From contig NZ_CP036298.1 of the NCBI RefSeq assembly GCF_007752135.1, positions 1,550,001-1,614,000 on the forward strand: a stretch of 64,000 nt of DNA. The letters run 5' to 3'. A program made the translations under genes and the position numbers. A model generated the notes under the pieces. It saw only the letters and a list, made by a program, of their open reading frames with translations, did not search any database and had not been told where the DNA came from. The stretch comes from Aureliella helgolandensis. Lineage in GTDB: Bacteria > Planctomycetota > Planctomycetia > Pirellulales > Pirellulaceae. This document shows positions 829-10,479 of this stretch, piece by piece (position 1 is the first letter of the stretch; each line of letters begins with the position of its first letter).

Positions 829-3267
829 TTAGCCGGTGACATTCACACGCACGGTGCCAACACGGCGTTGGAACGCGGCACCGACATCCAGGAAGATGTC
901 CCAGTAGAGGCCCCATTCCCCTTCGGTCAGGATGCCACGTCGAGTGATCGGGCCGCGGTTCGTGCCCCGCCGAAACGCCAGCTTGACCGAACGTTTGTCA
1001 CCGGTGGCGAATGCGTAGAGCGAATCGGGCGTTCCGGCAATTGCGGCCTCGTCATTGGCTGGGTCGTCAACTCCCAAGTCGATCGCAGTATCCTCGACAA
1101 CACGGTAGGCATTGCGGTGAGGGTTGACGGCATGGTTGATCGTTTCCGATCCGATCTGGATTTTGGCGGCTGGGCTCTGCGTCAGTCCGGCTGCGATCAC
1201 GCCACCCGCAACTTGGATTCGCCGCTTGCCAATTTTCTTGGCTCCGAGGGCAACGCCCATGGCCGTCACACCATCGGTGTCGAATGCAGCAACGTCGATG
1301 TCGTTTCCGTCGGTCGAGTTGTAGCGAGCTTTGCCATCGGACAAATTGTCGGTGCGGAGAATTTCCGCCCAGACGATATCGGCGACCATTTGCTTGGCGG
1401 TCTTGCCGAGCTCTTCGGGCATGTGGCCGGCAATGCCAAAGCTATCGTTGATCATCGCCAGGTCGGTCAGCTTGAGCACTCCGGCGTAGCGTTCGGCGGC
1501 AACGCTCTGCAGCGTTGGATCGTCGACGTTCAACGTGGCTGCCTTGCCGGGGTTCTTCTTGCTCTGCTTGACCATGCGGCCGACGCCAGTCATGTCGGCG
1601 TCTTTGTGGTCGCGGTGATCCATCACGTCGACGATATCCACAAACTGCTCGTACGCGCTGTAGGCCAGGGCGTAGCTGTTGAGCAGTTGCATGTGCACGA
1701 CCGAGCCGTAAAGGGCGGTGAATCCACCGGAGGCGAACGCCCGTTCGATCAACTGCGTTTCGTCGTAGACCCGTTCGCCCGTTTCCTGCTCAATCACCAA
1801 TTCGGCGAGCCGCATTAGAGTCAGGTTTCGCAGGCCACGTTGACCAGCGATGTCGAACGCTTGCTCCAGGGCGTCGCGTCGCTGGCCGGTGGCGGGTTGA
1901 TTGCAGATCCAATCGGATTGGAACTCTCTGCGGCCGCCCACCGACCGAGCCAGATCGCTGGTCAGGAACGGAGAATCGGGGCGAATGCCAGCTCGCTCGA
2001 GCAGAGCCGCATGCAGGACTCGCAAATTGAGCTGCTCGGATCCACGCACATGGCCCGCTGGGGGAACTCCGGTTTGGCGTCCGGTGCGGATTGCTTCCAG
2101 GAATCGCCCTTGAGCCGCCTCGACGGTGATTCCCTCGTTTTCAGCCGCACGGACGACCGTTTCGGAAACCTCGGGATGCTGGGCGGCCAATTCGCGGATC
2201 GCGGTAATGCGAGCTCGCTCGGCGGCGATCGCTTCGTTGGACGCCGTTCGGAGGTGCGTTTGCAGTTGCTCGGCGGTGAGTGAGTCGCTGCGCTGGCCAC
2301 CGTCGGTGGGAGCTGGATTGGTCGAATCGGTGCCAGTTGCTCCAGCTCCGGTTCCTCCGCTTCCCTCACCACTGCGTGTTCCAGTGGTGGCAGAGCCCTT
2401 GACCTTGGCGGATGATACCTCGAACGCCACGCCATCGGACTTGCAATAGTTGGCCAGTTCGTTCAGCTGTGCGGAGGTTAGCACGCCACCGCGAGCCCAC
2501 TCGAGAGCGGCGTCGGTATCGGTGACAGTGGACGCCAGGCCCAACCCGTGCAGAAATCGTAGGAATTGTTTCATGGTATCCTCTGCCGTTTCGAAAGTAC
2601 GTCCAGCGGTCGCTGGTGGGGTAGCTGATTGCTCAGCGAAAAATTCTAAAGTCGTCGCATCTGCCGTCCCTTGCGACTTGAGCTTGGCTCGTGCATCGGC
2701 TGGGATCACTACGACCGAAACCTCTCGCAATCGCCATCGGAAAACGATCCGCAGAGAGCGATCCTTGGGGGCGGTGTACGATTTGCCTTTGACGGTCTGC
2801 GTTTCCCCGGCGGGAATCGTCACGTAGTCCTTGGCCGTGTAGTCGTAGCCGATCGAGACCCGCCGCAAGTGCCCTTGTTTGACGCGTCGCCAGATCGATT
2901 CGGCCGTATCGTCGAGCTCGGTACCGAACTCGAGCCAGCCGTCGAGGCGATCATTGGCCACCACTGGCTCGATCACCGATCCGAGGATCGAGGTTACCGA
3001 GTATTGGTTGTGGTCGCGCAGCAGTGGCGTTTGCTCCTCGTACTCAGCACCATCCATGCGGAGGATTTCGAGCACGATTTCGCCACGCCGCCAATCGTAG
3101 ACCGCCACGGGATCTTCCGTGGTGAGCACCGATTGGATGCGTCGATTCTCTTCGTCGAGCGTTTTGGGCGTGAGGACCGCCGCGCGCGTGATTACCGGAA
3201 CTGGTTCGCTACGTGTGGAGCGGACCAGGTCACGGAATTGATCGGCGAGTTGGGAGTGTGTGGCCAT
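829..3267 (-). CDS. Prohead protease / major capsid protein fusion
   Basis: This 812-residue polyprotein-like gene joins a prohead maturation protease to a major capsid protein. Residues 1-205 resemble the U35 (HK97-type) prohead protease: His86 sits in an LRDHN motif followed by ILGSV, and Ser138 sits in RRVSIGYDY; these are the expected catalytic positions. A low-complexity Gly/Ser/Thr linker follows around residues 290-330, then a charged helical segment to about 405 that could act as internal scaffold. The remainder, from about residue 470, resembles the Mu gpT-type major head subunit, with conserved stretches around LMRLAELVIE and VDIVDVMDHRDHK. The protease would free the capsid domain during prohead maturation. 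It starts 45 bp after the tape-measure-like gene ends. Such fusions are known in temperate phages; the exact cleavage site cannot be seen. Confidence 0.85.
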   Translation of the reverse strand: MATHSQLADQFRDLVRSTRSEPVPVITRAAVLTPKTLDEENRRIQSVLTTEDPVAVYDWRRGEIVLEILRMDGAEYEEQTPLLRDHNQYSVTSILGSVIEPVVANDRLDGWLEFGTELDDTAESIWRRVKQGHLRRVSIGYDYTAKDYVTIPAGETQTVKGKSYTAPKDRSLRIVFRWRLREVSVVVIPADARAKLKSQGTADATTLEFFAEQSATPPATAGRTFETAEDTMKQFLRFLHGLGLASTVTDTDAALEWARGGVLTSAQLNELANYCKSDGVAFEVSSAKVKGSATTGTRSGEGSGGTGAGATGTDSTNPAPTDGGQRSDSLTAEQLQTHLRTASNEAIAAERARITAIRELAAQHPEVSETVVRAAENEGITVEAAQGRFLEAIRTGRQTGVPPAGHVRGSEQLNLRVLHAALLERAGIRPDSPFLTSDLARSVGGRREFQSDWICNQPATGQRRDALEQAFDIAGQRGLRNLTLMRLAELVIEQETGERVYDETQLIERAFASGGFTALYGSVVHMQLLNSYALAYSAYEQFVDIVDVMDHRDHKDADMTGVGRMVKQSKKNPGKAATLNVDDPTLQSVAAERYAGVLKLTDLAMINDSFGIAGHMPEELGKTAKQMVADIVWAEILRTDNLSDGKARYNSTDGNDIDVAAFDTDGVTAMGVALGAKKIGKRRIQVAGGVIAAGLTQSPAAKIQIGSETINHAVNPHRNAYRVVEDTAIDLGVDDPANDEAAIAGTPDSLYAFATGDKRSVKLAFRRGTNRGPITRRGILTEGEWGLYWDIFLDVGAAFQRRVGTVRVNVTG

Positions 3268-3312
3268 TCGAGCAGTGTGCCCGAGTTTCCCCCCGCGTCC
3301 CGCGCGTACGCC

Positions 3313-5226
3313 CTAGGGTTGCAGATTGTTGACCGCCCCAGTGGCCGGTTGCGGGTTGGCCGGTGGTGCTTCAGGTTGGTCTTGCATGGCTTCATTGCTC
3401 GCCGCGATCGACTCGACCATGCGTTTCATCCCTGCGTTGAACTCCTCGTCCGCAAACCGTTCTCGCACGGTTCCGGCGTTGGCGACGGCCGAGCGTTGTC
3501 GCTCCAGTGCGGTTTGCACTCCTCCGCTATCGAGTGCACCTATTCCGCCCTGTGCAGCGAGCACTTGCTCGATGTTCTTGACCTGCTGGTCGATCAACAC
3601 GAGCTTGGTCTCGTCGCCTGCCTGGATTCCATCGCCACGCAATCGTCCCGCCCGCAGCAAGAGCGTTCGCACGGCCGATGCTCCTTCCTCGGCCGCAGTC
3701 GATCCGGTGAGCCCCCCATACGCCGAGAAATCTCCGCGAGCCGCCAAGAACCCATCGATCCCGGCCGGCAACGTTTTTCCCAGAGTTTCGCTGGTGATCT
3801 CGCGAATTAGGTCCAGCGTGGCCCCTTCGGTATCTTCCAAATTCTTGGCGTTGAATGCCGCTTTAGATCTATTTTCTGCTGAAGCAATTGCGAGCGGGGA
3901 GGTTGCGCCATGAATCTGCCCCACGACCTTATCGTACTCTCCGCGGCCTAGACTGACGGACTCAACGCCGCTGGCTACGTTGCGAGATAACTCGGACGTC
4001 GGGTCTAGGAGCGACTCAACAGCAATTTTGGCGGCCCCACCGCCTAGCACCGAAGAGAGAAATTTCTCTTGGATTTCCTTACTACTATTGCGCAATAACT
4101 CTAATCGGCCCAATGTGGAACCCGGATCATCCACTTTATCCTTTGCGAACGCTCGCAACTGAGGTTCTAGGTCTCGAAGTGCCGTAGCGGAAATATCACC
4201 AGTTTTGTCGTTTAGCTGCTTGGTTAAGCTTCCAAATAAAGCCGCCGTTTCCCGGACTTTTACCTCAGGGGCTGCCTCAGAAGCAGCGGCGCTAATTGCA
4301 AATAACTTAGGGAGTTGTTCTGCGAGCTTAGCGGGGTCTTTGACTGCCGAGATATTGCCTGCAGTTAGTAGTAAGTTCAGGCCCTGGATTGGATCATTTG
4401 TGCCTGTATACCGACCAACTGTGTGTGCCGCCGCCGACAAATCGTCGAGTGCTTCTGGTGAATTCGTTGTGAGGCTAGCCGCCGCGCGAACTGCCGCGAC
4501 TACCTGTTTTTCATCGGCGCCAACCGAGACTGTAGCCCCCACGGCGTCATTCAGCGAGGATACGTCGGGAAACCCTGCGTCTCTGGCGATGTTCGGGATT
4601 TCAACCTTGAGGAGTTCAGACTGCTGAATGGCAGTTAGCCCCACAGAGTTTTTGTGGAAATCCTGCTGGGACCTCGCAAGAGCAATCTGTGCATCCTTGG
4701 CCTCTTTCAGCAGGTCGCGCTGCTGTTTGAGATACCCGTTGACGGCTTGAATCGCTTCCGACACACCCACGTAAGCACTCGCAATTCCCGCGATTTGCCC
4801 GACCGCCGACTTGCCAAACCGCTGGAAAATCGATTCGCCTTTGTTGCCTGCGTCCTGCATGTTCGAGACCAGCTTGCGAGCAGCGGCCGCCGATTCCGGA
4901 TCGATCAAATCCAGCTTGGCGACCACACTCTCGATCGACTTCTCGCCGATCTTGCCCGCTTCTACCAAGTGCTTGCGGAGCTCCTCCGATGCCTGGCGTC
5001 CCTCCGGCCCAAGAGTGTTGAGTTCCTTCAACAGGCCCTTGAGTGTCTTTTCGGCCTCGGCCTCGACCTTGGCTAGGGCGTCCTTCATCTGGATCCCAGC
5101 AGCATCACCTTGCACACCGGTGTCGCGCAGCTTCCGCTCGAGCTCGAGTTGCTTTTGAATGACGTTGTCGAGCGATTTGAGCAGTTTTGCCTCGTCGCCC
5201 GTCAGTTCTACGATTTGCGTCGCCAT
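3313..5226 (-). CDS. Tape-measure-like phage tail protein
   Basis: The 637-residue product opens with a long alpha-helical, coiled-coil-prone segment (residues 1-130, rich in Lys, Glu and Leu). A small Gly/Ala-rich hydrophobic stretch near 135-160 (VGQIAGIASAYVGVSEAI) follows, then a long helical body. This layout is typical of tail tape-measure proteins, which set tail length. It has no enzyme motif. It is short for a tape measure. The coding region from about 3840 to 4640 is visibly richer in A and T than both flanks, as if this part had a different origin. It starts 86 bp from the divergent helix-turn-helix gene and is followed 45 bp later by the protease/capsid fusion. The function is inferred from composition and context. 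Confidence 0.6.
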   Translation of the reverse strand: MATQIVELTGDEAKLLKSLDNVIQKQLELERKLRDTGVQGDAAGIQMKDALAKVEAEAEKTLKGLLKELNTLGPEGRQASEELRKHLVEAGKIGEKSIESVVAKLDLIDPESAAAARKLVSNMQDAGNKGESIFQRFGKSAVGQIAGIASAYVGVSEAIQAVNGYLKQQRDLLKEAKDAQIALARSQQDFHKNSVGLTAIQQSELLKVEIPNIARDAGFPDVSSLNDAVGATVSVGADEKQVVAAVRAAASLTTNSPEALDDLSAAAHTVGRYTGTNDPIQGLNLLLTAGNISAVKDPAKLAEQLPKLFAISAAASEAAPEVKVRETAALFGSLTKQLNDKTGDISATALRDLEPQLRAFAKDKVDDPGSTLGRLELLRNSSKEIQEKFLSSVLGGGAAKIAVESLLDPTSELSRNVASGVESVSLGRGEYDKVVGQIHGATSPLAIASAENRSKAAFNAKNLEDTEGATLDLIREITSETLGKTLPAGIDGFLAARGDFSAYGGLTGSTAAEEGASAVRTLLLRAGRLRGDGIQAGDETKLVLIDQQVKNIEQVLAAQGGIGALDSGGVQTALERQRSAVANAGTVRERFADEEFNAGMKRMVESIAASNEAMQDQPEAPPANPQPATGAVNNLQP

Positions 5227-5312
5227 GGCTGTTCCCGTGTGAAATTTGCGGCAGTCTGTAGCATTCTTGCCAGGTCCGTTCTAGTGTCCCATGCGTCCAC
5301 TGAGGGTATAAT

Positions 5313-5786
5313 GTGCGGACTTTTCCAACGCGGGCCCCGGGGATTGGTGCTATTGCTGCAGATTTGCCGCCGGACGACACTCTCTTTTTGCGCCGCATGT
5401 TGGCCGATCGTGTGCAGAATCGTGGCCATACGATCAAGCACATCGCCAACACGACTCGTATTTCACGCAATCGCCTCTTGCAGATCGCCCGCGACTCTGG
5501 GTTGCACTACCGATGCAAGTTGCCAACTCAGGCACAAGTCGACCAAGCATTGAGCGGCGTGCTGCGCGAGGGACTGAGTTGCAAAGGGGCGGCCCTCAAA
5601 GCTGGCATGAGCAAATCGGCGGTCCACCGCCTGGTGCAAGCGGCGCGCAATCGCCACATCGATTCCGCCGGGCCGGTGCGATACTTCCAACGCACGTGGA
5701 GGTGCCCAGACCATGGCCTGGTCGGTTTGGTGCCTTGCGTCGCATGCCTGGCGATGGGAAATCCGGGGTTACCCGAAGAGTTCTAG
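5313..5786 (+). CDS. Two-HTH, zinc-ribbon-like phage regulator
   Basis: The frame encodes 157 residues from GTG 5313, but an ATG at 5397 is an equally likely start because a TATAAT sequence sits at 5307-5312. Two helix-turn-helix-like segments are visible: IKHIANTTRISRNRLLQIA near residues 41-60 and KGAALKAGMSKSAVHRLV near 91-108. The C-terminus has CPDH, then PCVAC, a four-ligand zinc-ribbon pattern. DNA binding is therefore likely. It is the first plus-strand gene of the island, diverging from the tape-measure-like gene, a usual place for a regulator. It could alternatively be a remnant of a transposase DNA-binding domain. The last codons carry one copy of a 16-bp repeat that recurs at 7825. 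Confidence 0.6.
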   Translation: MRTFPTRAPGIGAIAADLPPDDTLFLRRMLADRVQNRGHTIKHIANTTRISRNRLLQIARDSGLHYRCKLPTQAQVDQALSGVLREGLSCKGAALKAGMSKSAVHRLVQAARNRHIDSAGPVRYFQRTWRCPDHGLVGLVPCVACLAMGNPGLPEEF

Positions 5787-5795
5787 TGGGACGCC
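5780..5795 (+). repeat. 16-bp direct repeat, copy 1, over a stop codon
   Basis: The sequence GTTCTAGTGGGACGCC covers the TAG stop of the preceding gene and recurs exactly at 7825-7840, again over the stop of a gene. The pair brackets the secreted protease gene and the packaging-type gene. Confidence 0.8.
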
Positions 5796-5879
5796 GCGCG
5801 GGACAAATCAAAACTAGTGGGATTGTCTAGCGAATTCAGTTCGCGCTTCAGTTGCCACTCGTTCTATAAGGATTTACCC

Positions 5880-7121
5880 GTGAAACCATTCGCACTTGCC
5901 ATGATTGCGATACTCGCAATCACGGAGTTTGCCGGGCTGGCTTCGGCGCAGCTCCTTCCCTGGCGTCGACAGGCTCAAACAAGTACTTCCGCACAATATG
6001 CCACTTGCCCACCTGGAACGGTGTGCCCTTCTCCCGGAACGCTCTACGATTCCGGACAGGTTGTTACGGCTCAATTTGATCCTGGACCCCTCGCCGTCTC
6101 GCCAGTCGCTCGTCGCGAGACCCCCGAGGTCACCGAAACTGCCGAGGTGGAAGCGGATCATCCCCACACCCGATGTATTTACAACGGCAGTTGCGGCTCT
6201 GGAACGATCTGTGGGGCCGACGGCAATGGTAGCTTCATTGTCACCAATGCCCACGTGACCGGGACACAATTGGGGAGGGTTGTCTCTGTCGATTGCGTCG
6301 TCAATGGCGGGCAAAGGCGACTCACTGGGCGCACCGTGATGACAGGTTACTCTGACAGTCGGATGGTGGATTTCTCAATCGTCTATGTGGAGGGATTATC
6401 AAGCAAACGCTATATGCCAATGCTGAAATCCGAACCCGATAGTCCTCCGTTCGGTACCACAGGCTCTCCTCGCTGCGTTTGGCCTTTGGTCGTAAAGCAG
6501 TTCAACGATGCCCGCAACTACGGAGATGGCTTGATCACCGGAACGCCCAATGCGATCGGTGGCCAATCTGGATCCGCGATCTACAACAGCAAAGGACAAC
6601 AGATTGCTTTGTTGACTTGGTCGATTGGCAATCGCTGTGCTGGCCAAAAAACGTCAAAGCTGTGGCAGGTAGCCAGTCAACGCAACATGCACTTGGCCGA
6701 TTTGCGTCCTCAGGGGTTGAGCGAACTTAGCGATGGAGACGGCGAACGACCTGATACAAGTGAGGGCATTTTCGGCTCCTGTGCGCTGATCGAAACGTCT
6801 GAACGTTACCGGCCAGAGACCGCTAGCGTACTAGCTTCAATTGCCGGAAGCGCGATGGAAGATATGCCGATCTGGGTCGTCCCTGATGGGGAGGGGCCTA
6901 CCGATCCGGATTGTCCACCATGCCCACCATGTCCGGATTGCAAGCCAGATTGCCCGCCAGGCGATGATTGCATGGTTGTGACGCAGAACGAACGCGAGTT
7001 GATTGAGTTTCTGCGGGCACAGCGTACCGCCTTTGGTGACGGGGAGAAGGCTTTCGACTGGGCTAAGATCATCAGTTTGATATTGGAACTGATCCGAGAG
7101 ATCCAGGAAGGCCGCGGCTAG
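5880..7121 (+). CDS. Secreted trypsin-like serine protease
   Basis: The start is GTG 5880, preceded by AAGGA seven bases upstream. The 413-residue product has a signal peptide (hydrophobic residues 4-22, likely cut after ASA at 21-23). A chymotrypsin-fold protease domain follows: His125 in TNAHV, Asp164 in MVDFSIV and Ser230 in GGQSGSAIYN form the expected triad. Several cysteines (43, 49, 99, 105, 111, 139, 199) suggest disulfides and an extracytoplasmic location. After residue 330 comes a Cys/Pro-rich stretch of repeated CPPCP units, then a short helical tail ending in LILELIREIQEG. It sits among phage structural genes, so it may be cargo or a virion-associated enzyme. Its substrate is unknown. 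Confidence 0.8.
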   Translation: MKPFALAMIAILAITEFAGLASAQLLPWRRQAQTSTSAQYATCPPGTVCPSPGTLYDSGQVVTAQFDPGPLAVSPVARRETPEVTETAEVEADHPHTRCIYNGSCGSGTICGADGNGSFIVTNAHVTGTQLGRVVSVDCVVNGGQRRLTGRTVMTGYSDSRMVDFSIVYVEGLSSKRYMPMLKSEPDSPPFGTTGSPRCVWPLVVKQFNDARNYGDGLITGTPNAIGGQSGSAIYNSKGQQIALLTWSIGNRCAGQKTSKLWQVASQRNMHLADLRPQGLSELSDGDGERPDTSEGIFGSCALIETSERYRPETASVLASIAGSAMEDMPIWVVPDGEGPTDPDCPPCPPCPDCKPDCPPGDDCMVVTQNERELIEFLRAQRTAFGDGEKAFDWAKIISLILELIREIQEGRG

Positions 7122-7207
7122 TTGCCGGGCTGCGGTCCGAGGCGGTAGAATTCTTCGCTAAGCCTGGCACCCAGGCCGCGAAATCCGCGTAGTGTTCGCA
7201 ACTATGA

Positions 7208-7831
7208 ATGGCGAAGAAAAAAGCCGCGGCGAAAGCAGAGTCGAACGATGATGCGCGCCTCCTCGCCGCGTACCAAGCTCGCATCCGACAGCTGCAAGGC
7301 AGCCCGCTCCGGCGCCAAGACATTCGCGATATCGAATGGCTAGACGCCCGCGTACGTGCTGAGGCAATCGCCGCTTGGCGATCGGCCGTTCCCAAGGGCG
7401 AGTATTGCCAACTGGCTGGCCGGCAGCACAAACTGATCGACGATGCGGCGGACAACTACCGGTTGCCGCTCCGCGGGGCGTCGGTCAATCTCCGCGAGGC
7501 GCTCACCGCCCTGCACGATTTGATCGCCGCCAATTCCCATCGACTCCGCAGCGAATTAGGGGACGATCGCGACGAGCTCGAGGCGGAGAAACTCCGCCAG
7601 CAGATCGTCGGACTCGAACGCGACAACGAACGCAAGTTGATCGATTTGCAATTCTCCAAAGGGGACGCGATCCCCAAGGCCGCCGTGCGATCGGCCTTGG
7701 TCGCACTCGCCGCAAAGCTTCGCACCCTGGGGCAAACTCTCGCTCGCATCGATCCGGAGGCTCGAAAAGCACTGAACGATTTCCTCGAGGCCCTGGCCAC
7801 GGAAATCGAGGATGGCGAACTGTCGTTCTAG
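7208..7831 (+). CDS. Packaging-type phage protein (terminase small subunit-like)
   Basis: This 207-residue, mostly helical protein has a basic N-terminus (MAKKKAAAKA), a central segment with KGEYCQLAGRQHKLIDD, and a long C-terminal coiled coil containing LEAEKLRQQIVGLERDNERK. The arrangement of an N-terminal DNA-binding-like part followed by a coiled coil is that of Nu1-type small terminase or packaging proteins common in planctomycete prophages. No large terminase is in the window. The gene ends on the second copy of the 16-bp repeat and is followed 82 bp later by the tail-tube-like gene. The assignment rests on architecture and context. Confidence 0.55.
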   Translation: MAKKKAAAKAESNDDARLLAAYQARIRQLQGSPLRRQDIRDIEWLDARVRAEAIAAWRSAVPKGEYCQLAGRQHKLIDDAADNYRLPLRGASVNLREALTALHDLIAANSHRLRSELGDDRDELEAEKLRQQIVGLERDNERKLIDLQFSKGDAIPKAAVRSALVALAAKLRTLGQTLARIDPEARKALNDFLEALATEIEDGELSF

Positions 7832-7840
7832 TGGGACGCC
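7825..7840 (+). repeat. 16-bp direct repeat, copy 2, over a stop codon
   Basis: This is an exact second copy of the 5780-5795 sequence, covering the TAG stop of the packaging-type gene. In both genes the last codon before the stop is TTC (Phe). Confidence 0.8.
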
Positions 7841-7913
7841 TGGCCAGCGGTGGTCATCATGCAGACTGCTAACACGCAAACGATGATTCGATCCCATAAA
7901 TGCAGGTTGCCAC

Positions 7914-8837
7914 ATGTCACTCCACACTGCCTACGCAATCAAACACGGCACCACAGTGCTCTCCGGCCTGCAGGGACTGAACGTGTCCACCAATCCGGAA
8001 GTGCAAAACAACGTCGGTATCGGTTCGCCGTTTCCGCAGTTTGCCGCGATCGTCGCCCAGAAACCTCGCGATGCCTTCGGATCGACGATGGTTGCCCAGG
8101 CCCTGGCTCTGACTGGATCCACCGGCGCGAAGATCGACGCCAGTAATCCACTCGTCGGCTACTTCGCCAAACTCGACGTTGACGGACTCCCACTCTCCGG
8201 ATCGGTCCACCGGTCCTATACGTCCAATCGTGGCGTGATCGTCCCCCGTCGACTAACTTGCTCCCACCGCCAGGCCGCCCGCCTCGACATGGAGGCGATC
8301 CTATTCTCTTCCGACGGGGCCGCTCATCCATTGGTCATCGCTGACGATGTCGCTCTGCCGACTTTGGTCGTGGCCAACGTCGAACATACACTCGGGCCAA
8401 TCTCTCTGGGTGTCACCGCTGGCGTGGTCGCGTTTGGTTGTGCGCAGTCTGTCACTATCGACTTTGGCCAGGGTGCCGAGGCCCTCGGATGCGACAGCGA
8501 CATCTTCGACACGCACATGCAGCAAACCGGCATCCGCCCAGTAATCACGCTCACCGGACTCGACGCGTCTGCGTTCGGAGCGTCCGGTGTGCCACCAGTC
8601 GGATTGAAGGTCGACCACACCGAGACGGCCATCTATCTCCGCAAGCGTGACGATGGAATCGGATTTGTGGCAGACGATACCGCCGAGCACATTAAGCTCA
8701 CCGCCAATGGCGTCGCTGTCGTGACGCAGCACACCGGCCAGGGTACCAGTCGTGCCGAGATCACAGTCCAAATCACCTGCTCTTGGGATGGCACCAACGC
8801 CCCCATCACTATCGATACCGCAGCGGAGCTCCCATAG
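7914..8837 (+). CDS. Putative phage tail tube protein
   Basis: The 307-residue product is rich in Thr, Val, Gly and Asp with alternating hydrophobic residues, as in beta-rich tail tube or tail fibre-base proteins. It has no signal peptide or membrane segment. Motifs such as LTGSTGAKIDASNPLVGYF and ITVQITCSWDGTNAPITID are beta-strand-like. It is followed directly by an 88-residue gene and a chaperone-like gene with a frameshift site; the gene before the tail chaperone pair in long-tailed phages is normally the major tail protein. That order is the main support for the call. I do not recognise the family from sequence alone. Confidence 0.5.
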   Translation: MSLHTAYAIKHGTTVLSGLQGLNVSTNPEVQNNVGIGSPFPQFAAIVAQKPRDAFGSTMVAQALALTGSTGAKIDASNPLVGYFAKLDVDGLPLSGSVHRSYTSNRGVIVPRRLTCSHRQAARLDMEAILFSSDGAAHPLVIADDVALPTLVVANVEHTLGPISLGVTAGVVAFGCAQSVTIDFGQGAEALGCDSDIFDTHMQQTGIRPVITLTGLDASAFGASGVPPVGLKVDHTETAIYLRKRDDGIGFVADDTAEHIKLTANGVAVVTQHTGQGTSRAEITVQITCSWDGTNAPITIDTAAELP

Positions 8838-8839
8838 TC

Positions 8840-9106
8840 ATGGCGAAAGCAAAATCCCAAAAATCCACGGAACCAACGGCCGCCGCCGCTCTATCCACCG
8901 ACACTGCAGAGCCGCAGATCTCGCCGGACGACATCAAAGTCGCCGTGCGATGCGTGTGCTGTGTGACTGGATGCGGCAGTAAAGAGGCAGCTGCCCGTGT
9001 GGCCAACATGTCCAGCCGCGACATTGCCAAGCTGGTGGCCGCCGAACGCAGCAACAATCGCCGCGCTGCCGTGCCCGTGCTCTATTCGCGACCCACTGCC
9101 GCTTAA
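8840..9106 (+). CDS. Small phage-module protein, unknown
   Basis: The ATG lies two bases after the stop of the tail-tube-like gene, implying translational coupling. The 88-residue product has a Lys/Ala/Ser-rich start, then VRCVCCVTGCGS (four cysteines close together), and a helical region around SSRDIAKLVAAERSNNRR. The Cys cluster could bind a metal. No family is recognised. Its position between the tail-tube-like and chaperone-like genes suggests a tail-assembly accessory role. Confidence 0.55.
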   Translation: MAKAKSQKSTEPTAAAALSTDTAEPQISPDDIKVAVRCVCCVTGCGSKEAAARVANMSSRDIAKLVAAERSNNRRAAVPVLYSRPTAA

Positions 9107-9129
9107 TTCCTCCCTCTCAAAGGTCCCCC

Positions 9130-9888
9130 ATGCTTTTGTTTTTCATCCCGGAGGCAAAAGCTGTCAGCGACCAGCTCCTCCGCGACCACGGACTCGACCG
9201 CATCATCCTCGCCGGTCGTCACCATCGCGAGACATTCCGCGGACCAAGCGGCGGCCAAGGCCTGCTAATTGCCGACGCCCGCACTCCAGCTGGAGCGCTG
9301 GAATACCTGGCTGATAAGCAGACTTGGTCGCCGCGTTTTGGATTCTCCTCACTGGTCGGCACGTTCAACGACAAGCCGCCCACCCCTCGCGAACTGCTCC
9401 GCGAGAAAACACTGCCCGGAGAATCGATCCGGATGGTCGACGGCCACGACTGGATCGTGCCGCTCCTACGCAACTGGCGGCCCGGAGAGACGCTCGACTT
9501 TTCTGCGACCCTCCCGCGAGTGATGCGGCAGTCTCCCGAGACTGGCAGCTTTGTCCTCGGCGACGTGGTGCCCCAATACTCGGCCATCTGGGAAACCTCC
9601 CTCGACATCGCCAACACGCTGCTAGCGCAACTGGCCAAAGATGGAGCCGCCGAGCTCAACGACGCGATCACGATGCAATTTGTGTGCGACTTGCTCGCGA
9701 TCAACTATACGGTCGACGCGTCGATCGTGTCGCACCTGCAGATCCTCACCCCCGAGTTGTCCGGCCGGATCATTACCTCGGCCCTGGACTGGGACACGTT
9801 GAGGGCCCATCTAAAAAAACTCCTCAGCCGCTCGACATCCGGCGGCACAAATTCCGACTCTGGTGCAACGCCGCCGACCGAGGCATAA
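9130..9888 (+). CDS. Tail assembly chaperone-like protein, zero-frame product
   Basis: The zero-frame product is 252 residues and ends in a low-complexity Ser/Thr/Gly tail (SGGTNSDSGATPP). The body is a soluble mixed alpha/beta protein without known motifs. Near its 3' end, seven A at 9813-9819 are read as A-AAA-AAA in the zero frame. A -1 shift there gives a 272-residue product ending at 9947. Its position after a tail-tube-like gene matches the G/GT chaperone pair of lambda-type phages. The next gene would normally be the tape measure, but here it is chromosomal; the tape-measure-like gene lies on the other strand at 3313-5226. The chaperone role is inferred from the frameshift and context, not from recognised homology. 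Confidence 0.6.
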   Translation: MLLFFIPEAKAVSDQLLRDHGLDRIILAGRHHRETFRGPSGGQGLLIADARTPAGALEYLADKQTWSPRFGFSSLVGTFNDKPPTPRELLREKTLPGESIRMVDGHDWIVPLLRNWRPGETLDFSATLPRVMRQSPETGSFVLGDVVPQYSAIWETSLDIANTLLAQLAKDGAAELNDAITMQFVCDLLAINYTVDASIVSHLQILTPELSGRIITSALDWDTLRAHLKKLLSRSTSGGTNSDSGATPPTEA

Positions 9889-9947
9889 CCACCGGCGATT
9901 ACTTTCCCACACCAGCCGAGTTGGCAATTTGGCACTACGCTCGCTAG
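9813..9947 (+). other. -1 ribosomal frameshift site and shifted C-terminal extension
   Basis: The slippery heptamer A-AAA-AAA occupies 9813-9819 in the reading phase needed for a -1 shift. A possible stem (GCCGC at 9827-9831 with GCGGC at 9842-9846) starts seven bases after it. The -1 frame then stays open to TAG at 9945-9947, adding 42 residues in place of the zero-frame 22. The shifted tail contains RRHKFRLWC and PTPAELAIWHYAR, which look more protein-like than the zero-frame low-complexity tail. The structure has not been tested. Confidence 0.65.
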
Positions 9948-10026: not shown

Positions 10027-10479
10027 CACACTTACATACCCTCGTTTCGGCGCCGGTGTGCGCAAAAAATGCCATCGATGAACGGGCTACGCCCCGCAGG
10101 GCACCCCGCCGGGAGGGACCCGCCACCCGGGGGGCCCCTCCGACCCTCGGCCCGCCGCCCTCCCGCCTCGCTGGCCGCCGCCGTGCGACACGCGTGACAC
10201 ATATCCACTGACACGCGTGCGTTTGGCCCTGCGTTTTTTCGTTGACGGGCCGATCCTTGCCTCTCTGGAGGGGCGTTTCGCGGTTCCTGAAGCCCGCTAG
10301 CTAAAGAATGCTCGCCAGGAAGTAAGAAGTAAATTGGAGAGCGAATAAGATTGCAGAATGGAATTCCAGAGGTGGGGCGAGGCTGGCCGAGTGGGGCTGC
10401 CTCCCGCTTTCGCTCGTCGAATTTCTTAGCGATGTGGTTCTTGGTGCTGTGGTGCTTGGCTCAGTAGCTCCTGGCATCT
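10027..10479. other. Gene-free boundary between phage island and chromosome
   Basis: No convincing gene is seen. The part from about 10,085 to 10,185 is extremely rich in G and C. Two direct copies of GACACGCGTG lie at 10187-10196 and 10210-10219, each holding the palindrome CACGCGTG. No integrase core, tRNA or obvious attachment duplicate was seen. Confidence 0.5.

Follow-up and report, generated by a model that had tools for sequence, protein, structure and literature searches.

A probable G/GT-like tail-assembly chaperone family of planctomycete phages with two predicted routes to the longer product

We suggest that the gene beginning at position 9130 of the window (the whole stretch of DNA analysed here, 64,000 nucleotides of the Aureliella helgolandensis genome, which is a single contig of 8.44 Mb) very likely encodes the tail-assembly chaperone of a long-tailed (siphophage-like) prophage, made as G and GT through a ribosomal -1 slip. 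The gene very probably represents a new family of G/GT-like tail-assembly chaperones. In this family the two products are probably made mainly by polymerase slippage on runs of exactly nine A's, and some lineages, including the window's clade, would have switched to a ribosomal -1 frameshift at phase-bound heptamers followed by a hairpin. In the window, most ribosomes would stop at 9886-9888 and release G, and a minority would shift into the -1 frame on A_AAA_AAA, with help from the hairpin that lies 7 nt further on, to give GT, which would carry the conserved 42-residue T end. By analogy with lambda, G may bind the tape-measure protein and T may recruit tube subunits. The features of the region are collected in Table 1.

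Table 1. Features of the prophage region, in window positions
Feature	Position	Strand	Observations
Head protease and capsid protein of the same prophage	829..3267	-	phrog_4523 E 1.5e-53; Phage_capsid_4 E 4.5e-12
Tape-measure-like gene, 637 aa	3313..5226	-	Clusters with the gene following the chaperone in 12/13 family-level relatives
Tail tube protein (by predicted structure), 307 aa	7914..8837	+	Predicted structure pLDDT 94.9; matches P74-26, SH-Ab15497 and T5 tail tubes
Small protein between the tube and chaperone genes, 88 aa	8840..9106	+	Small genes at the same place in some relatives
Zero-frame ORF, putative G-like tail-assembly chaperone, 252 aa	9130..9888	+	Homologues; structure model pLDDT 93.9
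Slippery heptamer A_AAA_AAA, in phase for -1	9813..9819	+	In-phase heptamer at the matching position in 13/13 family-level homologues
-1 frame extension T, 42 aa plus stop, predicted to give GT of 272 aa	9819..9947	+	T profile in the -1 frame in 74/84 members
Hairpin	9827..9846	+	Starts 7 nt after the heptamer; 30-nt fold z -3.29; double changes in four sequences

The zero-frame codons around the run are CAT CTA AAA AAA CTC, giving A_AAA_AAA, which fits the X_XXY_YYZ heptamer pattern in the phase required for a -1 shift. The -1 frame is free of stops from the stop at 9315-9317 to TAG at 9945-9947, and the joined product consists of 230 + 42 = 272 residues with the C-terminal end PTPAELAIWHYAR. 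The zero-frame tail, LLSRSTSGGTNSDSGATPPTEA, is low-complexity. The original prediction, made from the letters of this DNA, had described a seven-A run in the exact -1 phase, a 42-residue extension with a protein-like end and a low-complexity zero-frame tail, and our analysis confirmed each of these descriptions. According to the available text of PMC5009743, A_AAA_AAA is much less shift-prone than A_AAA_AAG in E. coli, which counts against the ribosomal frameshift reading for the window. A_AAA_AAG was itself observed as the slip site in two other loci, L013 (G149) and L077. An identical 17-nt element was seen 3' of the chaperone gene in the window (10083-10099) and in L019 (15403-15419) of the same genus (E 0.004), which may be chance.

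Of 241 genomes from the same bacterial family that were searched, 14 had a match, among them the genome of the window. All 14 loci have an in-phase slippery heptamer near the ORF end and an open -1 extension, and the extensions share a common core around W...P[TS]. The original prediction had proposed conservation of the slip site and the extension as its own test, and both are kept in 13/13 family-level homologues. The heptamer is GGGAAAC in seven loci and an A run in the other seven (A7 in the window, A8 in L006, A9 in L008, L010, L014 and L015, A_AAA_AAG in L013). Homologues without an A run, named beforehand as grounds for giving up the reading, do therefore occur (7/14), but in the GGGAAAC loci a different in-phase -1 heptamer occupies the corresponding place and the extension is kept; the missing A run is therefore no refutation and the reading still stands. 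An in-phase heptamer within the last 70 codons was found in 14/14 family-level loci compared with 1.9 expected from synonymous resampling, for heptamer classes (A6N or GGGAAAN) that were picked after the set was seen. A chance A run was rejected on this count and on the absence of other A/T runs of at least nine in the loci. At the sequence level, the gene has a conserved, apparently programmed shift near its 3' end that would give a longer product, as expected of a G/GT gene.

The homologue set was enlarged through order-level (396 genomes, 19 with matches) and phylum-level (392 genomes, 12 with matches) searches, the window's own genome being counted in each, through 400 genomes from the order of G868 (2 with matches), through viral-contig scans (21 and 46 loci, partly overlapping) and through three loci reached via the tape-measure start. 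Single-protein scans of genome contigs and viral contigs, pair alignment against viral contigs, a search of viral contigs with the window's tape-measure-like protein and tblastn of two chaperones in phage records gave no result, and L054, found via the tape-measure start, has no recognisable chaperone gene. Altogether 109 loci were located; the removal of 18 loci with at least 90% identity to another left 91 below 90% identity, of which 87 had a readable 3' end, L050, L052, L053 and L088 being set aside for a profile match that fell short of it.

A slip site was detected in 84 of these 87 non-redundant members (A9 in 65, A10 in five, A8 in three, A7 in four and GGGAAA[AC] in seven). Both the slip site and the extension are absent in three loci (L041, L051 and L130), and the in-phase heptamer at the ORF end is also absent in L050 and L088, which makes 5/89 if these are counted; L050 was observed to have neither slip site nor T extension, like the three. 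A T profile built from the 14 family loci (threshold 5 bits) detected T in the -1 frame of 74/84 members, or 62/72 outside the family loci, and in the +1 frame of two. The eight members below 5 bits all have an open -1 extension when inspected by eye, with P[TS] in six. The two loci with T in the +1 frame, L048 (A8) and L120 (A10), may have an error in the run length or an indel, or may slip in the opposite direction.

The position of the shift is constrained by stop codons. The -1 frame has a stop 7 nt before the run end in eight loci and the zero frame has a stop 1-7 nt after the run in five, leaving the run as the only possible site across the family. Differences between six pairs of relatives, counted at -1-frame codon positions 1/2/3 of the extension, were 5/5/15, 13/16/21, 5/2/5, 9/9/24, 10/5/22 and 4/3/12; they fall mostly at third positions in 5/6 pairs, a pattern to be expected of a T end under selection, and the third pair is not informative. 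We consider it highly improbable that the A run is incidental and that T is a separate protein, translated from an internal start in the -1 frame. A -1-frame ATG, GTG or TTG precedes T in 51/84 members, and the window has such start codons upstream of T; internal initiation might occur at this locus taken alone. However, 33/84 members have no -1-frame start before T (L120 trivially, its -1 frame being closed there), for which internal initiation was rejected for the family. In addition, the slip site is conserved, and the other A/T runs across the 531,606 bp of these loci comprise 26 of seven, six of eight and none of nine or more.

The slip site is a run of exactly nine A's in 65/84 members, the first A being at codon position 1, 2 or 3 in 23, 23 and 19 of them, respectively. 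A ribosomal -1 slip needs seven A's when the run starts at codon position 3, eight at position 2 and nine at position 1. Among phase-3 runs, 19/23 are exactly nine long. If relatedness is left out of account, the probability of this is about 7e-24 when the continuation rate is set to 0.22 and about 4e-14 when it is set to 0.5; the observed continuation rates were 0.25, 0.20 and 0.19. In nine whole genomes, exact A9 has about 3-5% of the frequency of exact A7 (14 versus 448 in the window's genome). A quick and rough tree of 87 G domains (40/84 inner branches weak) requires at least 26 changes of codon phase among the A9 members, with the length staying at nine.

A run of nine A's of conserved length in homologues is very likely a mark of purposeful transcriptional slippage in the available text of Baranov et al. 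2005 (PMC1088944), where Thermus dnaX is cited. Following this source, we infer from the exact A9 in any phase that the A9 members, which are most of the family, make G and GT through RNA polymerase slippage. The conserved run of about nine A's is a feature of the family (65/84, three phases) and not of the window, which has A7. The original prediction could not have seen that most members have the exact A9 in any phase, which points to polymerase slippage in them rather than to a ribosomal frameshift. No report of a tail chaperone made by transcriptional slippage was found in the open-licence literature, as far as its available text goes.

One mechanism for the whole family, with the A9 members also using ribosomal -1 frameshifting and the long run offering extra slip positions, appears rather unlikely, although it is not without supporting observations. 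Phase 3 needs seven A's and phase 2 eight, yet the phase-3 runs have the excess of exact nines described above; exact A9 is rare relative to exact A7 in the nine genomes; and the A9/A10 members show no downstream hairpin signal (0/70 at 30 nt, 3/70 at 66 nt). On the other side, an in-phase A_AAA_AAA or A_AAA_AAN lies inside every A9 run, whatever the phase, the upstream SD-like 4-mers (8/14 heptamer and 22/70 A9/A10 members) give no clear split, and ribosomes are known to slip on A runs (PMC5009743, available text). Polymerase slippage in the A9 members is the reading we prefer.

The window's locus (L002) forms one branch with L003, L004, L006, L007, L009, L011 and L013 (SH-aLRT 95), which has phase-bound heptamers only; a strong local 30-nt hairpin was detected in five of these eight members. 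Changes between the heptamer and the A9/A10 class occur at least seven times across the tree. The possible stem seven bases downstream of the run, noted in the original prediction, was borne out locally. The 30-nt fold at 9820-9849 has -11.7 kcal/mol (z -3.29, 1/200 shuffles equally good) and its helix begins 7 nt past the run, in the place of a stimulatory structure for a ribosomal -1 shift, but the 66-nt fold at the same site is unremarkable and not significant (z -1.15, 27/200 shuffles; in a repeat z -1.00, 29/200). The 7-bp hairpins of the window, L003, L004 and L005 align gap-free with three pairs changed on both sides, a count that was reached in 18/500 shuffles, slid controls giving 0-1, for a comparison of only four sequences. 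The innermost of the seven stem pairs is non-standard in the window.

Downstream folds were scored as strong at z below -2 and compared between the 14 heptamer and the 70 A9/A10 members. At 30 nt, 5/14 versus 0/70 were strong (Fisher 6.5e-5, Mann-Whitney 0.011), these five hairpins being all in the window's clade and so not independent; the upstream control folds were strong in 2/14 and 6/70. The corresponding counts were 5/14 versus 2/70 at 36 nt (Mann-Whitney 0.066) and 5/14 versus 3/70 at 66 nt (Mann-Whitney 0.003, with no significant difference in control stretches). The strong 66-nt folds include L040 and L112, outside the window's clade, and do not include the window.

We also considered RNA polymerase slippage as the source of GT in the window, through an extra A in some transcripts, which seems quite improbable. 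The argument for it is that 65/84 slip sites are exact A9 whatever the codon phase, as transcriptional slippage would lead one to expect (PMC1088944, available text), and that an A run with a hairpin can favour polymerase slippage too (PMC5009743, available text). The window, however, has a run of only seven A's that is exactly in the ribosomal phase, its hairpin is at the ribosomal spacing, and its clade relatives mostly have GGGAAAC in the same phase, which offers no homopolymer for polymerase slippage. Polymerase slippage was rejected for the window on the A7 length, the phase-bound run and the hairpin, and these same features suggest that the slip in the window member is ribosomal.

The product G was modelled with pLDDT 93.9 and pTM 0.87, with a beta-rich N-terminal part and C-terminal helices; the lysines of the slip site (229-230) are in the last helix. 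In BFVD, one significant match of G was detected, named Tail assembly chaperone (E 6.5e-5, low TM 0.27/0.46), and PDB gave no match at E 0.001. Searches of 48 members against Pfam, PHROGs and NCBIfam gave no convincing match, with isolated weak ones (best E 0.0032), and no sequence homology to known chaperone families was detected. With predicted G/GT-like behaviour and no sequence or PDB match, the family cannot be placed by descent within the lambda family. Planctomycete phage tail genes were mostly unmatched in the family libraries tried.

The neighbouring genes provide the context for the function. The predicted fold of the upstream protein matches the P74-26 tail tube in PDB (E 3e-8, TM 0.64), as well as the SH-Ab15497 and T5 tubes, supporting its assignment as the tail tube. 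The original prediction had the chaperone gene following a tail-tube-like gene; the tube is upheld by the predicted structure, but the gene for the 88-aa protein lies between the two. Of 78 further loci scanned, many of which have just 1.5 kb of flank, 70 have a tube homologue upstream on the same strand and 28 have a tape-measure-like start downstream. The tape-measure-like gene follows the chaperone gene in 12/13 family-level relatives, the contig ending in the thirteenth. Its 637-aa counterpart in the window has no family match and is named from its position and length. The relatives thus have the G/GT arrangement of a gene between tube and tape measure, and the window has the tube upstream and the tape-measure-like gene on the other strand.

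The portal, terminase, capsid and tape-measure-like genes of the window are on the minus strand, to the left of the chaperone gene, so that the prophage is rearranged relative to its kin; with the tape-measure-like gene on the other strand, the tail module of the window may be disrupted. Two opposed blocks, capsid/tape-measure-like/portal/terminase on the minus strand and tube/chaperone on the plus strand, were seen in the window (829-9947) and in the left flank of L029. The head and tail genes seen in relatives are collinear, including the same-genus genome G009 (L019). A trypsin-like peptidase gene (5817-7121, plus strand; Trypsin_2 27.5 bits, cut-off 27.6) was observed between the opposed blocks.

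The chaperone role is suggested by the gene position, the G/GT architecture and one weak structural match. It is unlikely that the protein is another tail component (e.g., a completion or minor tail protein) that happens to be frameshifted. The large beta-rich domain of G, with no solved relative, and the missing sequence link to known chaperones would fit such a component, but the classic arrangement of a chaperone gene is this one, with a place between tube and tape-measure-like genes and a C-terminal extension reached by frameshifting, and the sole significant BFVD match of G is named chaperone. The lambda-type tail chaperone put forward in the original prediction thus gained support from the slip site and extension in the homologues and from the tube neighbour, the chaperone function itself being putative.

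Tail-chaperone frameshifting is textbook ribosomal recoding. Like lambda G/GT (PMC5009743, available text), the family described here has a single gene whose product would be extended by a -1 shift close to its 3' end, a place between the tube and tape-measure genes (in the relatives) and an X_XXY_YYZ slippery heptamer. It differs from lambda G/GT in that its G is much larger and has a beta-rich N-terminal domain, and in that most of its members have A9 in any phase; neither sequences nor solved structures show a detectable similarity between the two. GGGAAAC and A_AAA_AAC are g-t slip sites in haloarchaeal viruses (PMC5009743, available text), and this GGGAAAC -1 site in a tail-chaperone gene is similar to that of the window's clade, although the hosts and the proteins differ. 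According to the available text of PMC1088944, Thermus dnaX relies on transcriptional slippage at A9; according to that of PMC5009743, the E. coli gene relies on ribosomal frameshifting. The dnaX case resembles the present family in that homologous genes reach two products by either mechanism. It differs in that ours is a phage assembly gene whose shifted product is the longer one, with both types of slippage deduced from sequence.

If the two-mechanism reading is true, the chaperone family would be a phage counterpart of the dnaX story. Two mechanisms for one product pair would suggest that selection keeps the pair and its ratio and not the mechanism. The family offers a natural series, from phase-free A9 to phase-bound A7, A8 and GGGAAAC, and it can help annotators to find the GT products and tail modules of planctomycete phages.
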